From Pseudonocardia asaccharolytica DSM 44247 = NBRC 16224 (GTDB lineage: Bacteria; Actinomycetota; Actinomycetes; Mycobacteriales; Pseudonocardiaceae): a stretch of 64,000 nt of DNA. Positions within the stretch are counted from its first letter, which is position 1. Each line of letters starts with the position of its first letter. This document shows, one piece after another, positions 9,564 to 49,144 of this stretch. The notes beneath the pieces were generated by a model. The model saw only the letters and a program-made list of their open reading frames with translations, was not told the origin of the DNA and did no database searches. The DNA lies in NCBI RefSeq assembly GCF_000423625.1, contig NZ_AUII01000009.1, positions 62,001-126,000 on the forward strand. Reading direction: 5' to 3'. A program made the translations under genes and the position numbers.

Positions 9564-9611
9564 CCCTGTGAGTGCGTAACAGTGTTCTAACACTGTTACG
9601 CACTCACAGGG
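9564..9611. terminator. 48-bp perfect palindrome, dispersed family copy A
   Basis: The left arm starts CCCTGTGAGTGCGTAACAG and the right arm mirrors it; the arms are 23 bp with a CT centre. It begins 3 bp after the stop of the minus-strand monooxygenase gene and would form a very stable hairpin in that transcript. There is no U-tract, as is common for actinobacterial terminators. A near-identical copy is at 33320-33365 and a half copy at 17130-17140. Confidence 0.8.
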
Positions 9612-9614
9612 GGA

Positions 9615-11081
9615 TCAGACCAGCAGCTCGTGGTCGGCCGGATCGATCCTGCGGGTGCGCCTGCGGAAGCTGAACGTGGAGCCGGGCCAGAGCGTGCGGT
9701 TGCGACCGTGCTCGTCGAGGTACCAGCTCACACAGCCGCCCTGGCTCCACACCGCGTTCTCCAGCCGGGACTGGATCTCGGCGTTGAACGCGTCCTGCCG
9801 CTCGGCGACGGTGTCGATCGCCGTGGCTCCGTGTCGGTCGACGACACGCAGCGCGTCGAGAATGTAGTTCAGCTGCGACTCGATCATGTAGATCATCGAG
9901 CTGTGCCCGAGGCCGGTGTTCGGACCGACCACGAGGAACAGGTTCGGGAAGCCCGCGACGGTCGTGCCGAGCAGCGCCTGGCTGCCGTCGCGCCAGGCGT
10001 CGACGAGCTTGACGCCGCCGCGGCCCGTGACCGCCACCTGCGCCATCCCGTCGCCGACCTTGAATCCCGTGCCGAAGATGATCGTGTCGACCTCGTGCTC
10101 GACGCCGTCTGCGGTCACCACGCCGTTCTCGGTGATCCGGGCGATGTCGCCGGTCTCGACCGTGACGTTGTCCCGGCGCAGCGTCGGGTAGTAGTCGTTG
10201 GAGAGCAGGATGCGCTTGCAGCCGATGGTGAAGGTCGGGGTGAGTTCGGCCTTGAGCGCGGGCGCGCCGGCGAAGGCGCGGTCGAGGCAGCGGCGGCCGA
10301 AGCGCGCGATCAGCGTCATGAACCGCGGGTTGAGGAAACCCGCGACGAGCATCTCGTGCTGCCAGTAGAGCTTCCAGCGGATCAGCTTCTGCAGCACCGG
10401 GAACCGCGCCGTCAGCCGACGGGTGCGGTCGCTGATCGGGCGGTCGGGTTTGGGCAGCACCCAGGGCGCGGTGCGCTGGAACAGCGTCAGGGATGCGACG
10501 CCGGGTGCGATGGCCGGGACGAACTGGATCGCACTGGCCCCGGTGCCGATCACGGCGACCCGCCTGTCCCGCAGGTCGTGCGAGTGGTCCCACCGCGCGG
10601 AGTGGAAGGCGGTGCCGGCGAACCGGTCGAGCCCGTCGATCTCCGGGATCGACGGCACGTGCAGCGCTCCGGTACCCCAGATGACGAACCGGGCGCGGAC
10701 CGTCGAGCCGTCCGCGATCCGGACCTCCCAACGCGAGCCGTCCCATTCCGCGCCGACGACCCGGGCTCCGAAGTGGATGCGATCGCGCAGCCGGTAATGA
10801 TCGGCGATGTCCTCGAGGTAGTCCCAGATCTCCGGCTGCCGCGCGAACGTGCGGGTCCAGTTCGGATTCGGCCGGAAGGAGAAGGAGTACAGATAGGACT
10901 CGACGTCGCAGGCGCAGCCGGGGTAGTCGTTGTCCCGCCAGGTGCCGCCGAGGGCGTCGTCCTTCTCCAGGATCACGTAGTCGGGCCGGCCGGCCTCATC
11001 GAGTTTCACCGCGGCGCCGAGGCCGGCGAACCCGCTGCCGACGATGACGATCTCGACGTCCGAAGGGACCCGTTCGGCCAT
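9615..11081 (-). CDS. Class B flavin monooxygenase, Baeyer-Villiger type
   Basis: 488 residues. Two Rossmann motifs are visible: VIVGSGFAGLG (FAD, about 12-22) and VIGTGASAIQ (NADPH, about 185). Between them FAGTAFHSARWDHSHDL fits the BVMO fingerprint F-x-G-x-x-x-H-x-x-x-W-[P/D]. GTWRDNDYPGCACDVESYLYSFSF is also typical. Such enzymes insert oxygen next to a ketone, making esters or lactones, with NADPH and O2. It is divergent from a TetR regulator with an operator in between, so it is probably derepressed by a substrate-like ligand. The ATG at 11081 is preferred; an in-frame ATG at 11102 lies inside the operator. Confidence 0.88.
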   Translation of the reverse strand: MAERVPSDVEIVIVGSGFAGLGAAVKLDEAGRPDYVILEKDDALGGTWRDNDYPGCACDVESYLYSFSFRPNPNWTRTFARQPEIWDYLEDIADHYRLRDRIHFGARVVGAEWDGSRWEVRIADGSTVRARFVIWGTGALHVPSIPEIDGLDRFAGTAFHSARWDHSHDLRDRRVAVIGTGASAIQFVPAIAPGVASLTLFQRTAPWVLPKPDRPISDRTRRLTARFPVLQKLIRWKLYWQHEMLVAGFLNPRFMTLIARFGRRCLDRAFAGAPALKAELTPTFTIGCKRILLSNDYYPTLRRDNVTVETGDIARITENGVVTADGVEHEVDTIIFGTGFKVGDGMAQVAVTGRGGVKLVDAWRDGSQALLGTTVAGFPNLFLVVGPNTGLGHSSMIYMIESQLNYILDALRVVDRHGATAIDTVAERQDAFNAEIQSRLENAVWSQGGCVSWYLDEHGRNRTLWPGSTFSFRRRTRRIDPADHELLV

Positions 11082-11101
11082 CGCCCGCCCCTCCAGTCTC
11101 A

Positions 11102-11130
11102 TTACCGAACGGTAAGTTACCACGGGTAAG
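11102..11130. promoter_or_regulatory. Tandem TetR operator between BVMO and TetR genes
   Basis: Two adjacent inverted repeats sit in the 72-bp divergent gap: TTACCG-AA-CGGTAA (11102-11115) and TTACC-ACG-GGTAA (11117-11129). Four TTACC half-sites with about 14.5 bp between centres suggest two TetR dimers. The TetR protein encoded next door is the obvious ligand (inferred). Confidence 0.75.
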
Positions 11131-11153
11131 TTCCCTGGGATAGGGTCTCCGCC

Positions 11154-11753
11154 GTGGAGACCAGGGCCCCCCGCCAACGTGTCGGCCGGGCCGAGCGCGA
11201 GCGGCAGATCCTCGACGCCGCCGTGGCCGTATTCTCCGAGCGGGGATACCAGAACGCGTCGATGGACGCCGTCGCCAAGCAGGTCGGCGTCACCAAACCC
11301 GTGCTGTACAGCCATTTCGGCTCCAAGGAGGGGCTGCTGCTGGCCTGCATCACGCAAACCCGCACCCAGCTGCTCGAGGTCACCTCCGTCGCGGCGGCCG
11401 CCGCCGACGGTCCGGAGGACATGCTGCGCCGCGGCACGAAGGCGTTCTTCGACTTCCTCGACGTCCAGCGCCCCGCGTGGGCGCTGCTGTGCTCGGAGTC
11501 GGCGATCTCGGCCGCCACCTGCTCCGCGCTCGAGGAGATCCGCCGCCAGCAGACCGACTTCATCGCCGGGATGCTCGCGGTGCAGGTTCCCGACGCCGAC
11601 CCGCACCGGCTCATCGGCTGGGCCAACGTGATCGTCGGGGCTTGTGAGCGGCTGGCCGTGTGGCGCGGCCGCGACCCACGGCTCACCGGCGAGCAGGCCA
11701 CCGAGTACCTGATGGACCTGGTCTGGACGGGGCTTGCGCCAAGGCGCCCGTGA
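11154..11753 (+). CDS. TetR-family transcriptional regulator
   Basis: 199 residues. The N-terminal HTH is classical: RQILDAAVAVFSERGYQNASMDAVAKQVGVTKPVLYSHFGSKEGLL (about 18-63). The C-terminal ligand domain is helical and unassigned. GTG start, 72 bp from the divergent monooxygenase start. It presumably represses that gene and itself through the tandem operator between them. The 3' end lies about 35 bp before the right end of a decayed TnpB element. Confidence 0.9.
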   Translation: METRAPRQRVGRAERERQILDAAVAVFSERGYQNASMDAVAKQVGVTKPVLYSHFGSKEGLLLACITQTRTQLLEVTSVAAAAADGPEDMLRRGTKAFFDFLDVQRPAWALLCSESAISAATCSALEEIRRQQTDFIAGMLAVQVPDADPHRLIGWANVIVGACERLAVWRGRDPRLTGEQATEYLMDLVWTGLAPRRP

Positions 11754-11786
11754 GCAGCGAGTAGCGCGGAGGCAGAATGCCATCCG

Positions 11787-12602
11787 TTGACTTCCTCCCC
11801 ACGCTTGGAAGCGGGGATTCCCAACCTCGCGGTGGGGATCTTCCTGTTTCAGCGACGGTCGCCCGCCGGGGCTTTCGCCCTGGCCGGTCTTACCCCGTCT
11901 CCGCAGGCGAGCACGGCCAGCCCGGCCGCTTTGATGTTGACCGCCGCATTCACGTCCCGGTCGTGGACCGCGCCGCACCGCCACGTCCACTCCCGCACCG
12001 CCAGCGGCAACTTCTCGGCGATCGCCCCGCACGCCGAGCAAGTCTTGCTGCTCGGATACCGGCGGTCGATCGCGATCACGGTGCGGCTGTATCAGTCGGC
12101 CTTGTACTCCAGCATCCGCCGCAACTGCGACCACGACGCGTCGCTGATCGCGCGGGCCGGACGGTGGTTGCCCACCAGATTGCGGACGTTCAGGTCCTCG
12201 ATGACCACCGTTTGGTTCTCACGGATGATCCTCGTGGACAGCTTGTGCAGGAAGTCGTGGCGACGATCCCGGATCCGGCAGTGAATCTTCGCTACCTTCG
12301 CACGGGCCTTGGCCGGTTCGCCGGTCCCTTCTGCGTGCGGGCCAGCCGACGCTGCGCCAACGCCAACCGCTTGCGGTCGCACCGTTCGTGCCGCGGGTTG
12401 GCGATCTTCTCCCCGGTGGAGAGGGTGACCAGGCTGGTGATCCCGGCGTCCATCCCTACCGTCTGCTCGTTGGTCGGGTAGCAGCGGTAGCGGTACGCCC
12501 GCTTCACCACCCGGGACCCCATACTCACATGGTAGGGCTTCATTCAGTGAAAGGAGGGAGCGGCGTTTCCTCCCCACGGCTGAAGCCGGGGCTTCCACGC
12601 CG
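11787..12602 (-). mobile_element. Decayed IS1341-type (TnpB-only) element
   Basis: Element ends can be aligned with the intact copy at 47843-49144. On the minus strand the left end contains GGAAGCCCCGGCTTCAGCCG then GGGGAGGAA (about 12566-12600). The right end contains GGGAATCCCCGCTTCCAAGCG then GGGGAGGAAGTCAA (11787-11820). Only a broken tnpB lies inside and no tnpA. The left end finishes about 10 bp before the ATG of the siderophore-interacting protein gene. Confidence 0.75.
11849..12543 (-). pseudogene. tnpB: Frameshifted tnpB, IS200/IS605 family
   Basis: TnpB segments lie in three frames on the minus strand. The 5' part has RAYRYRCYPTNEQTVGMDAGITSLVTLSTGEKIANPRH (N-terminus fused by deletion to the RuvC-I region MDAGITSL). 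The middle part has DRRHDFLHKLSTRIIRENQTVVIEDLNVRNLVGN (RuvC-II) and then a stop after LEYKAD. The 3' part has [12 protein letters not shown]...[15 protein letters not shown] (zinc ribbon plus RuvC-III). At least one large N-terminal deletion and two frame breaks make it non-functional. Confidence 0.85.
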
Positions 12603-15595: not shown

Positions 15596-17184
15596 CCGAG
15601 TCCCCCCACCACGCCCGGCAGGCAGGTGTCGCTCCGGATGAACCGCGGCGAGACGACCCACCCTGGCGCCGTCTGCACCCGCGGATGCTCGTGGTCACTC
15701 CGCTGGACACCATCGTGCGGCTGCTGCCGGTGTTCGCGATCGTGCTGCTCACCGGGCGTGGTGACCCCGTCCGGGTGTGGATCGCACTCGGCATCACCGG
15801 CCTGCTGATTCTGCTGGGTGCCATCCGCTGGCTGACCACTCGCTACCGCATCACCGCTGATCGCGTCGAGCTGCACAAGGGCTGGCTGAACCGGCAGCGC
15901 ACCTCGGTGCCCCGCGACCGCATCCGCACCGTCGATCTCACTGCCAAGCTGGTGCACAGGATCTTCGGGCTGAGCGTCGTGCGGGTGAGCGCCGCCGCTG
16001 GTTCGCACGCCGGGCTTCATCAGCTCGACCTCGACGCGGTCGACACCGCGGAGGCCGAGGGGTTGCGCCGGGAGCTGCTGGCGCTTCCCGTACCCGCGCC
16101 CGACGGCTCGGCCGAGGCTCCGGCTCCCGCGGCGCCGCCCGCCGAGGAGCTGGCCCGGCTGGACCCGTCGTGGGTGCGCTACGCGCCGCTCACGGTCTCC
16201 TCGCTGGCCGGGATCGGCTTGGTGCTCGGGGCGGTCTGGCGGCTGTTCGACGACCTTGGCGTCGATCCGCGGGACGTCCCCACCGTCGACACGGCCGCGG
16301 ACCGCCTCGCCGAGGCCCCCGTCTGGGTCGGGACGGCGGTGGTGGGCGTGGTGCTGCTGGTGATCGCCGTCGTCGGCTCGGTGCTGCTGTTCATCGAGCG
16401 CTGGTGGAACTACCGGCTGACCCGCGAGGCCGACGGGACGCTGCGGGTGCGGCGCGGGCTGCTGACCCGGCGATCGCTGTCGGTGTCCGGGCGACGGCTG
16501 CGCGGGGTCCTGGTCAGCGAGCCACTCCTGCTGCGGGCCGGTCGCGGGGCGCAGGCGCGGGCCGTGTCGACCGGGTTGGCCGAGGACACCCACGGTGGTG
16601 CGCTGCAGCCCCCGGCCCCGCGCGCCGAGGCCGGCCGGGTTGCGGCGGTGGTGCTGCACGAGGATCCGTCCATGATCGTCGGGGCTCCGCTGCGGCGGCA
16701 TCCGCGGGCGGCGCTGACCCGCAGGCTGACCAGGGTCCTCGGGTCGGCGGTCGGGCTCATCGCGGCGGCGTGGCTGGTCGCGGCGCTGCTCCCCGGCCTC
16801 GCCTGGCTCGGGCCGGTGTCGCTGGCGCTGCTGCCGATCGCCCTGCTGCTGGGGCTCGATCGCTACCGCAGCCTCGGCCACGCCCTGACCGCCCGCTATC
16901 TGGTCGCGCGGCAGGGCAGCCTGCACCGGCGAACCGTCGCGCTGCAGCGCACCGGCGTGATCGGCTGGACGTTCCGGCAGAGCGTGTTCCAGCGGCGGGC
17001 CGGGCTGGTGACCGTGCAGGCCGTGACCGCGGCCGGCGACGGCGGCTACCGGGTGCTCGACATCGCCGCCGCCGACGGGGCGGCCCTGGCCGACGCGACC
17101 ACCCCCGATCTGCTCGACCCGGTGCACCACACTCACAGGGGGGTCAGCGCCTCCGGCGGCGGGTACCGAACAGGCCCCGGTTGA
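15592..17184 (+). CDS. PH-domain membrane protein, YdbT-like
   Basis: 530 residues with three bPH2/DUF304 units, each preceded by paired membrane helices (about 40-80, 205-275 and 365-405). YRITADRVELHKGWLNRQRTSVPRDRIRTVDL is the clearest repeat, matched by LRVRRGLLTRRSLSVSGRRLRGV and LVARQGSLHRRTVALQRTGVIGW. GTG start, coupled to the smaller YdbS-like gene. Its last 13 codons run over the half palindrome at 17130 and the 3' end of the opposite ATPase gene (41-bp tail-to-tail overlap), which suggests that the original stop was lost. Confidence 0.8.
   Translation: MTESPHHARQAGVAPDEPRRDDPPWRRLHPRMLVVTPLDTIVRLLPVFAIVLLTGRGDPVRVWIALGITGLLILLGAIRWLTTRYRITADRVELHKGWLNRQRTSVPRDRIRTVDLTAKLVHRIFGLSVVRVSAAAGSHAGLHQLDLDAVDTAEAEGLRRELLALPVPAPDGSAEAPAPAAPPAEELARLDPSWVRYAPLTVSSLAGIGLVLGAVWRLFDDLGVDPRDVPTVDTAADRLAEAPVWVGTAVVGVVLLVIAVVGSVLLFIERWWNYRLTREADGTLRVRRGLLTRRSLSVSGRRLRGVLVSEPLLLRAGRGAQARAVSTGLAEDTHGGALQPPAPRAEAGRVAAVVLHEDPSMIVGAPLRRHPRAALTRRLTRVLGSAVGLIAAAWLVAALLPGLAWLGPVSLALLPIALLLGLDRYRSLGHALTARYLVARQGSLHRRTVALQRTGVIGWTFRQSVFQRRAGLVTVQAVTAAGDGGYRVLDIAAADGAALADATTPDLLDPVHHTHRGVSASGGGYRTGPG
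17130..17140. repeat. Half copy of the dispersed palindrome
   Basis: CACTCACAGGG lies a few bases beyond the stop of the minus-strand ATPase gene, exactly where whole copies sit at 9564 and 33320. The opposite arm is missing and the YdbT-like reading frame now occupies it. Short match, but the position and context agree. Confidence 0.55.
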
Positions 17185-33319: not shown

Positions 33320-33365
33320 CCTGTGAGTGCGTAACAGTGTCCTAACACTGTTACGCACTCACAGG
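33320..33365. terminator. 46-bp palindrome, dispersed family copy B
   Basis: 21-bp perfect arms starting CCTGTGAGTGCGTAACAGTG with a 4-nt centre (CCTA); one base differs from copy A at 9564. It lies 3 bp beyond the stop of the minus-strand SCO1664-family gene, the same placement as copy A beyond its gene. Confidence 0.8.
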
Positions 33366-33368
33366 GGG

Positions 33369-34163
33369 TCAGAAGGCGGGCCAGGGGATGGCGGGCCCGT
33401 AGCCGGAGGGCTCGGGGTAGCACCGCTGCCGCAGCAGGGCATCCACCCGGGCCGACAACGCCGCGACCTCTCGGCGGGTCACGTGCTCGCCCAACGTCTC
33501 GCACAGCCCGCCGTCGAGCGCGGCGCGCAGCTTGCGCAGCCCGGCCAGCACGTCGTCGGGCAGCTGTTGGCCGATCCAGCCCCACAGCACGGTGCGCAGC
33601 TTGTCCTCGGCGTGCAGCGTCAACCCGTGGTCGACGCCGTAGATCCGGCCGTCGGCCCCAGCGAGCACGTGCCCGCCCTTGCGGTCGGCATTGTTGACGA
33701 TGACGTCGAACACGGCCATCGCCCGCAGCTCGGGCAGATCGGCGTGGGCGAGCACCGCGGGTTCGCCGAGCCGGTCGCGGGCGCGCAGCACCGCGAGCCA
33801 TCCGGGCGGGAGGTCCGAGGGCGAACAGACGTCGACGAGCTCACGCTCGTCGTCGGTCTCCACCCAGACCTGCACCATTCCGGGTCCGAACGGGCCGTCG
33901 CGCAGCAGCGTCGGCGGGACGACGTGCCAGCCGGCGGCCTCCGAGACCAGGAAGCTGGCGACCTCGCGGCCGGCCAGGGTCCCGTCCGGGAAGTCCCACA
34001 GCGGGCGCTCGCCGCGGATCGGTTTGTAGACGCAGCGCAGGTCGACGCCGTCGAGGGCGATGGCGCCGAAGAGGGTGGCGTTCGAGGCGTCGACCAGCCG
34101 TCCGGTGATCTCGATCCGGCCGTCGCGCAGCGCTCCCGGCACCGCCGGGTCGAGGGGGTCCAA
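33369..34163 (-). CDS. SCO1664-family protein (PI3/PI4-kinase-like fold)
   Basis: 264 residues of the TIGR03843/SCO1664 family, distantly related to phosphatidylinositol kinases. CVYKPIRGERPLWDFPDGTLAGREVASFLVSEA gives the Lys-Pro nucleotide-binding strand, and AVFDVIVNNADRKGGHVL with IYGVDHGLTLH provides DxxxxNxDRxxxN-like and metal-binding D-H-G motifs. The substrate is unknown. TTG start (LDPLDP...), 10 bp after the DUF3090 stop. The order DUF3090-SCO1664 with MSMEG_4193 upstream is a conserved actinobacterial block. Confidence 0.85.
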   Translation of the reverse strand: MDPLDPAVPGALRDGRIEITGRLVDASNATLFGAIALDGVDLRCVYKPIRGERPLWDFPDGTLAGREVASFLVSEAAGWHVVPPTLLRDGPFGPGMVQVWVETDDERELVDVCSPSDLPPGWLAVLRARDRLGEPAVLAHADLPELRAMAVFDVIVNNADRKGGHVLAGADGRIYGVDHGLTLHAEDKLRTVLWGWIGQQLPDDVLAGLRKLRAALDGGLCETLGEHVTRREVAALSARVDALLRQRCYPEPSGYGPAIPWPAF

Positions 34164-44919: not shown

Positions 44920-44951
44920 GCCCGGGCCGACGCGGCCGCGTCGGCCCGGGC
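44920..44951 (+). terminator. 32-bp perfect palindrome after the IclR gene
   Basis: GCCCGGGCCGACGCGG is followed by its exact complement, 4 bp past the IclR stop. A 16-bp all-GC stem without loop bases would still fold as a strong hairpin; probable terminator. Confidence 0.7.
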
Positions 44952-47842: not shown

Positions 47843-49144
47843 GAGGAAGCCCCCGGCTTCGGCCGCGGGGAGGAATCGGAGCCGCTGATTACTCAAGTCA
47901 ACCTCCGAGGTAAGTTCGATGTCGTGCGCACGGCGTACAAGGTCCGGGCCTACCCCGACTCTGGGCAGGCGGCCCTGCTGGCCCGCACGTTCGGCTGCGT
48001 GCGCCTGGTCTGGAACCGCACCCTCGCCGAGCGGCAGCGCCGCCACACCACCGAGCGGCGCGACACCTCCTACCGGGAGACCGACGCGAACCTGACCGCG
48101 TGGAAGAAGACCGCCGAGCTGGCGTTCCTGAACGAGGTGTCCTCGGTGCCGCTGCAACAGACGCTGCGCCACCAGCACAACGCCGTCCAGGCCTTCTTCG
48201 CCGGCCGCACCCGGTACCCGCGGTTCAAATCCTGCCGCGGCCGCCAGTCCGCGCACTACACCCGCTCGGCGTTCCGCCTCAAACCCGACGGGCTGTGGCT
48301 GGCCAAGACCACCGCCCCGCTGCGGGTGGCCTGGTCTTGGCCCGAGATCGACCCGGTCATGCTGGATCCGACCATGGTCGTGGTGTCCCGGGAGCCGGAC
48401 GGACGCTGGTTCGTGACCTTCCTGGTCGACACTCCCGACCCGGCCCCGGCCCCGCCGACCGGCGAGACGGTCGGGATCGACCTCGGGGTGACCGACTTCG
48501 CGGTGCTGTCGACCGGGGAGCGCATCCCCAATCCCCGCCACCTGGTGAAGCGGGAACGCGGGCTGCGCCGCCAGCAGCGCCGGCTGGCGTGCTGCCGGCC
48601 CGGCTCGACCAATCGGGCCAAGGCCAAACACAAGCTGGCCCGCTTGCACGCCCGGGTGCGGGACGCCCGCCGCGATTTCCTGCACCAGACCTCCACCGCG
48701 CTGGTCCGCCGGTTCAACCGCATCGGCATCGAAGACCTCGGCGTGGGGAACATGGTGCGCAACCGGAGCTTGGCCCGCGCGATCTCCGACACCGGCTGGG
48801 CCGAGTTCCGGTCCATGCTGGAGTACAAGGCGCAGCGGGCCGGCCGTCAGGTCGTGGTGGTCAGCCGCTGGTACCCGTCGAGCAAGACGTGCTCGGCGTG
48901 CGGGCATCTGCTCGCCGCCCTCGCGCTCGGGACACGGCAGTGGACCTGTCCCGGCTGCGGCACCCGGCACGACCGGGACCTCAACGCCGCGCAGAACATC
49001 GACACCGCGGCCGGGCTGGTCGTGGCTGCCTCCGGAGGGGTGGTGAGACCCGACCAGGCAACTGGTGGGCGCGCCCCGGTGAAAGAGGAATCCCCACAGG
49101 TGACTGCGGGAATCCCCCGCCTTCAGGCGCGGGGAGGAAGTCAA
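47843..49144 (+). mobile_element. IS1341-type (TnpB-only) element inserted in the paa operon
   Basis: Left end GGAAGCCCCCGGCTTCGGCC then GCGGGGAGGAA (47843-47876), right end GGGAATCCCCCGCCTTCAGG then CGCGGGGAGGAAGTCAA (49108-49144). Both are shared with the decayed copy at 11787-12602. It carries one intact tnpB and no tnpA. It separates paaB from paaC and lies antisense to the operon. Confidence 0.85.

Follow-up and report, generated by a model that had tools for sequence, protein, structure and literature searches.

A dispersed palindromic repeat at gene 3′ ends in Pseudonocardia and some other Mycobacteriales

Introduction

Long palindromes directly behind a stop codon raise the question of what they are: fortuitous hairpins, transcription terminators, or copies of an element that moves. 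This question is posed by the window—the whole stretch of 64,000 nucleotides of Pseudonocardia DNA that was analyzed. A sequence-only reading had described two near-identical palindromes and one half copy here, each placed 3 bp after the stop of a minus-strand gene, and had proposed insertion at gene ends or a mobile terminator-like element. In the following, we describe these palindromes, their relatives within and beyond the host genome, and the explanations that might account for them.

The palindromes of the window

Both palindromes are real (Table 1). The one at 9564–9611 indeed has 23-bp arms, its 48 bp being a 46-bp unit plus one more C/G pair, and the one at 33320–33365 differs from it by a single loop base. 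Folded as RNA, both give a hairpin of 21 bp closed by four loop nucleotides (−38.3 kcal/mol, z about −10). None of the shuffled sequences folds as stably as either of them, the shuffled-window control is devoid of a palindrome of comparable size, and no Rfam match is found at the two sites. The 3-bp placement after a minus-strand stop holds for both—for copy 1 if counted from the 48-bp palindrome, as the gap to the 46-bp unit is 4 bp. The FMO-like domain of the monooxygenase next to copy 1 (ORF 9615–12134, minus strand) begins only at ORF residue 361, and hence the true start of this gene lies further in. The minus-strand ORF next to copy 2 (33369–34163) has no Pfam match.

Table 1 Features of the two palindromes and of the putative half copy (window coordinates)
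Feature	Position	Strand	Remarks
Copy 1, 46-bp palindromic element	9565–9610	.	sequence CCTGTGAGTGCGTAACAGTGTTCTAACACTGTTACGCACTCACAGG
42-bp core with feet, copy 1	9567–9608		
TGA stop of the flavin monooxygenase gene	9615–9617	− (TCA on +)	4 bp from the 46-bp unit of copy 1
Copy 2, 46-bp palindromic element	33320–33365	.	one loop base unlike copy 1
TGA stop of ORF 33369–34163	33369–33371	−	3 bp from copy 2
Putative half copy, unpaired CTGTGAGTG	17130–17138	−	5 bp after a minus-strand stop

The case is different for the half copy at 17130. It amounts to CACTCACAG(G) with the partner arm absent, and unpaired 9-mers of this type occur three times in 1.23 Mb of the genome, versus about six predicted from base composition. 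It is probably a chance occurrence, though it lies close behind a stop. The half-motif was discarded as an independent signal because unpaired 9-mers are not above chance; hence, the repeat unit is the whole palindrome.

Two further features of the window stand apart. A perfect 32-bp GC-only palindrome at 44920–44951 (GCCCGGGCCGACGCGGCCGCGTCGGCCCGGGC), 4 bp from a predicted stop, lies outside the family, and a stretch at 48111–48705 on the minus strand matches Rfam RF02743 (Sernc389, a Saccharopolyspora antisense sRNA) above the gathering score with 83.9 bits.

A uniform repeat in the host genome

The draft genome of the host (5.05 Mb) carries about 140 copies of the palindrome: an 18-base half arm gives 133 + 137 hits, the reversed control none. 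In the 1.25 Mb that were read completely, 40 copies share at least 41 of the 46 consensus positions and none shares 34 to 40, so that the set consists of uniform copies and at most two decayed ones. This gap in identity points to recent amplification or homogenisation. The length of the unit is fixed—a 42-bp core generally and 46 bp in the host species—and its asymmetric centre is seen in both orientations (TTCTAA/TTAGAA). Copies are single units, nearly always kilobases apart. In the flanks of the 40 copies, no direct repeat of 2–10 bp above shuffled pairing and no inverted complementarity past the 46 bp is seen (extensions of single copies are not significant), and the ends of the unit are therefore sharp. 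Rfam gives only sub-threshold matches of microRNA-precursor hairpins at the elements, none above the gathering score. A minority stem type also exists: a 42-bp palindrome on contig C3 of the same genome (L062, 5819–5860) bears a kindred foot and an unrelated stem (CGTGAGCGTTGGGTAGCGCTGGAGCGTTACCCAACGCTCACG), with a stop inside.

Placement at gene 3′ ends

The gene-end statistics for the host refer to the same 1.25 Mb and to a simple GC-based ORF finder in place of full annotation. For 33 of the 40 copies, the nearest stop is no more than 30 bp away, versus 18% of random intergenic positions, and 18 of 40 fall between convergent genes, whose gaps make up 20% of the intergenic positions sampled. 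The same holds for other species: about 77% of 183 copies are at gene 3′ ends, versus 10–18% of random intergenic positions. Of these 183, 38% start 0–8 bp past the stop (random 2%) and 18% at 9–18 bp (random 3%), while 21% have the stop within the unit (random 5%); in 33 copies, the TGA of the foot is the stop in use. Copies are, hence, not scattered at random relative to genes, the outcome by which the sequence-only reading would have been refuted.

The exact 3-bp spacing does not hold up as a rule. Measured from the 46-bp unit to the nearest stop, only 9 of the 40 host copies show an offset of +3/+4, whereas in 19 the stop is inside the palindrome: 10 at −7, with the TGA within the foot (CC-TG-TGA-G), 7 at −15, with a TAA within the unit, and 2 at −26. 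Four more lie at −1 to +1 and one at +19; the remainder is scattered. Where the stop is inside the unit, the element encodes the C-terminus of the protein (e.g., ...PVSA). Of the earlier proposal, it is thus the dispersed gene-end family that stands, with insertion preferred over a chance hairpin, and the fixed distance that falls.

Orthologous gene ends in congeners

Comparison with congeners supports an arrival by insertion. TsaD of the host ends in DLP-CECVTAF, with the tail CECVTAF encoded by the element, 13 native residues lost and the native 3′ end missing; the tsaD genes of the congeners examined end ...DLPADSSLPVTEVLVG or in close variants. Malate synthase (GlcB) ends natively in ...QRAKSSS in congener G032 and in ...QMAKKTRPVSA in the host. 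For HlyIII, the native end is IWLALF or IWLALFPG, and the host protein reads IWLAL followed by the TGA of the element; at this junction, the close relative G013 carries a 42-bp element of its own hybrid type and G024 one of its own type, with none in G032 and G018. Since native sequence is missing at the tsaD and HlyIII junctions, these are not simple clean insertions.

The monooxygenase of copy 1 ends in RIDPADHELLV in the host, followed by the element. The closest congeners, G032 and G013, have no element here, and G017 and G022 bear a short spacer only. G040 and G044 carry elements with different stems—CGTGAGTGGCGTTATTGGCTATAGCCAATAACGCCACTCACG, 2 bp past the stop, in the former and TGTGAGCGGCGATGGTCGCCATGGCGACCATCGCCGCTCACG, whose TGA is the stop, in the latter. 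At its stop, the empty site of G017 has the sequence CTGTGAGTG, possibly a foot-like target or a remnant.

At four such ends taken together, elements occupy 8 of 98 sites in congeners, versus 1.2 expected from copy numbers and rough gene densities. This means either that elements of common ancestry had their stems replaced or that certain sites are preferred. No cleanly matched pair of empty and filled sites was found at the strain level.

A separate observation concerns the tsaD–groES junction (C3:301266, L076): groES follows the element here, and several congeners apparently have a convergent gene after tsaD. It looks as if one end point of a deletion or rearrangement fell on a palindrome.

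A wider family with common feet and variable stems

More generally, the family follows the pattern YGTGMGYG-N26-CRCKCACR—exactly 42 bp with an 8-bp foot at each end. Exact matches, which leave out diverged copies, number 0–496 per genome in 62 congeners, versus 0–2 for the reversed control, and the copy number is hence dynamic within one genus. Relatives within the genus have foot and length in common and differ in the stem. In a sample of 180 genomes from the order, counts clearly above background are confined to a single further genus of this family (12–199 copies in each of its six sampled genomes) and one genome from another family (148 copies); a stricter scan places palindromes of this kind in Rhodococcus/Rhodococcoides, Actinomycetospora, Amycolatopsis, and Sciscionella.

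The stems change while their pairing is kept. Across 160 distinct sequences, stem positions 10–18 are paired in 78–90%, versus 27–53% under independence, with all four Watson–Crick types present. Some copies of G013 are hybrids of two half-families with only 12–14 of 20 pairs, and a perfect stem is therefore not indispensable.

Several matches lie at the margin of this distribution. A single copy in a different family of the order (G195:C208:2496–2537, CGTGAGTGCGTAAGAGTGTTCTAGCACTCAACGCCACTCACG), with a stem much like that of the host species, reflects transfer or contamination. Well-paired 41-bp hairpins with similar feet and preceding A runs in Enterococcus ureasiticus and E. caccae (L172 5204–5244 and L185) are probably convergent AT-tailed terminators outside the family. 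A search for carriage of the family by phages (50,697 records) or plasmids (72,556 records) gave no match. A loose foot pattern does fit 27 viral contigs, mostly without a paired stem (9–14 of 20–22 pairs; two at 16/20), and these look like chance matches.

Search for a mobiliser

RAYT genes (Y1_Tnp, PF01797) are absent from all element-rich congeners tested, and the only clear Y1 gene in the host belongs to an ordinary IS200/IS605 element to which the palindromes are not linked. RAYT or IS200 as a mobiliser is therefore unsupported: the mover is not a resident RAYT-type Y1 transposase. The IS200/IS605-type pair itself, on contig C16 (L332), looks intact and consists of TnpA (Y1) and a divergent TnpB-like gene. 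As for a parent element, 1.25 Mb of the host genome contain no unpaired arms able to bound a longer one.

Competing explanations

We favor, with a probability of roughly 0.6, that the palindromes are a REP/MITE-like, non-autonomous dispersed repeat, which inserts at gene ends or survives there. It is carried by high copy number, fixed length, placement at gene 3′ ends, and stem turnover under retained pairing; in addition, congeners differ in presence and absence at orthologous gene ends, and some proteins have C-termini encoded by the element. Against it count the lack of a target-site duplication, of any linked or identified transposase, and of a clean empty/filled pair between strains, as well as the native sequence lost at the tsaD and HlyIII junctions. 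The same gene ends occupied by different stems could also be elements long shared, with only the stem replaced.

Mechanistically, copies would have inserted at or just before the stop codon, at times with loss of native sequence. They might be retained there because the unit brings stop codons with it, a TGA in the foot and a TAA deeper inside, which would make a gene-end site harmless—and perhaps also because the unit is useful there. Once transcribed, it would place a 21-bp hairpin at the mRNA 3′ end, which may block exonucleases or aid termination. A bolder and rather doubtful extension of this repeat reading would be a RAYT-independent palindrome family of Mycobacteriales that is directed to stops by an overlap of CTGTGA(G) with the native ...TGA, rewrites the last codons, and carries stems proper to each species. 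If true, short pieces of DNA would be propagating specifically from one gene end to the next, altering the final codons of proteins on the way.

The strongest competitor, to which we give an appreciable though clearly lesser chance, is a dedicated terminator or mRNA 3′-end stabiliser, inherited vertically and acting bidirectionally between convergent genes. Homogenisation by gene conversion within each genome would then give each species its own stem. The very stable hairpin, the enrichment between convergent genes (18/40), the strong conservation of pairing under changing sequence, and the occupation of orthologous gene ends across several species with different stems all fit such a role. However, a U-tract past the stem is absent—the copies listed have G/C-rich sequence there—and in many copies the stem runs into the coding end and the stop codon. 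The ordinary terminators of the genus, by contrast, have loops of 3–5 nt, often A/T tails, and mostly start 14–28 nt past the stop. Nor does a terminator need a fixed length of 42 bp, and both the range of 0–496 copies within one genus and the poorly paired inner stems in some G013 copies speak against it. As to whether ordinary hairpins are lost where an element sits between convergent genes, the 15 cases available are too few for a comparison.

Less probable still is a protein-binding DNA site—serving chromosome organisation or as an uptake-like signal—whose feet are four helical turns apart and for which gene ends are the least harmful location. Conserved feet at exactly constant spacing around a variable centre would be expected of such a site, and a constraint on the feet only would allow for the G013 hybrids. 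Yet it leaves unexplained why the centres of other species are self-complementary and why centres within one genome are near-identical, and it comes with no candidate protein. Chance GC-rich hairpins or an assembly artefact can practically be dismissed: hairpins do occur at gene 3′ ends in all bacteria examined (PMC1590033, PMC6060812), but 270 near-identical half arms versus 0 in the control, the fixed length, and recurrence in dozens of independent genomes rule this out, in line with the earlier judgment that the hairpin is not random.

Comparison with known systems

No account of the motif, or of REP-like repeats in the genera concerned, turned up in the open-access literature searched, and the REP survey PMC3733652 is silent on these taxa in its main text; novelty is not thereby proven. 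The family would, hence, add an actinobacterial group for which no description was found to the range of dispersed palindromes of the REP kind, and it attains copy numbers in the hundreds per genome although the transposase to which REP mobility is ascribed is missing. Its tight link to stop codons, the C-termini that it encodes in core genes such as tsaD, and the repeated occupation of the same gene ends by different stems make two questions testable: by what means a repeat moves if there is no RAYT, and whether it targets gene ends or is just tolerated there. On the practical side, the 42-bp pattern is a simple marker for gene-end annotation in these genera.

REP/REPIN elements are GTAG- and CGTC-tagged palindromes (PMC3733652, PMC3116915, PMC8266576), and "double foot" forms of REPs are on record (PMC6006769). 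The present family resembles them as short, high-copy palindromes outside genes, often near gene 3′ ends and with a genome-specific stem. It differs by lacking the GTAG/CGTC tag and bearing YGTGMGYG feet at both ends, and by consisting of single symmetric units instead of one-sided tags and dimers—inverted pairs (REPIN/BIME) were not found among the copies. Moreover, element-rich genomes are without a Y1/RAYT gene, the family is limited to some Mycobacteriales, and the stop codon is often within the unit.

With MITEs, the family shares the non-autonomous, dispersed nature, the inverted terminal motifs, and the fixed length; its units are, however, far shorter than usual and almost wholly palindromic, with no target duplication and, in the 1.25 Mb read, no parent insertion sequence found with such ends. 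Intrinsic terminators are likewise stable GC-rich stem-loops at gene ends, frequent between convergent genes, but the family is without a U-tract, overlaps the stop, has a fixed length, and is near-uniform in sequence per genome. The attC sites of integrons are imperfect palindromes that start at or near a stop codon. In contrast to these, which form cassette arrays, the family is dispersed, its feet are unlike attC core sites, and its length is short and fixed. Altogether, the family works like REPs or MITEs, yet fails their defining features: the GTAG/CGTC tag, RAYT, and the target duplication.
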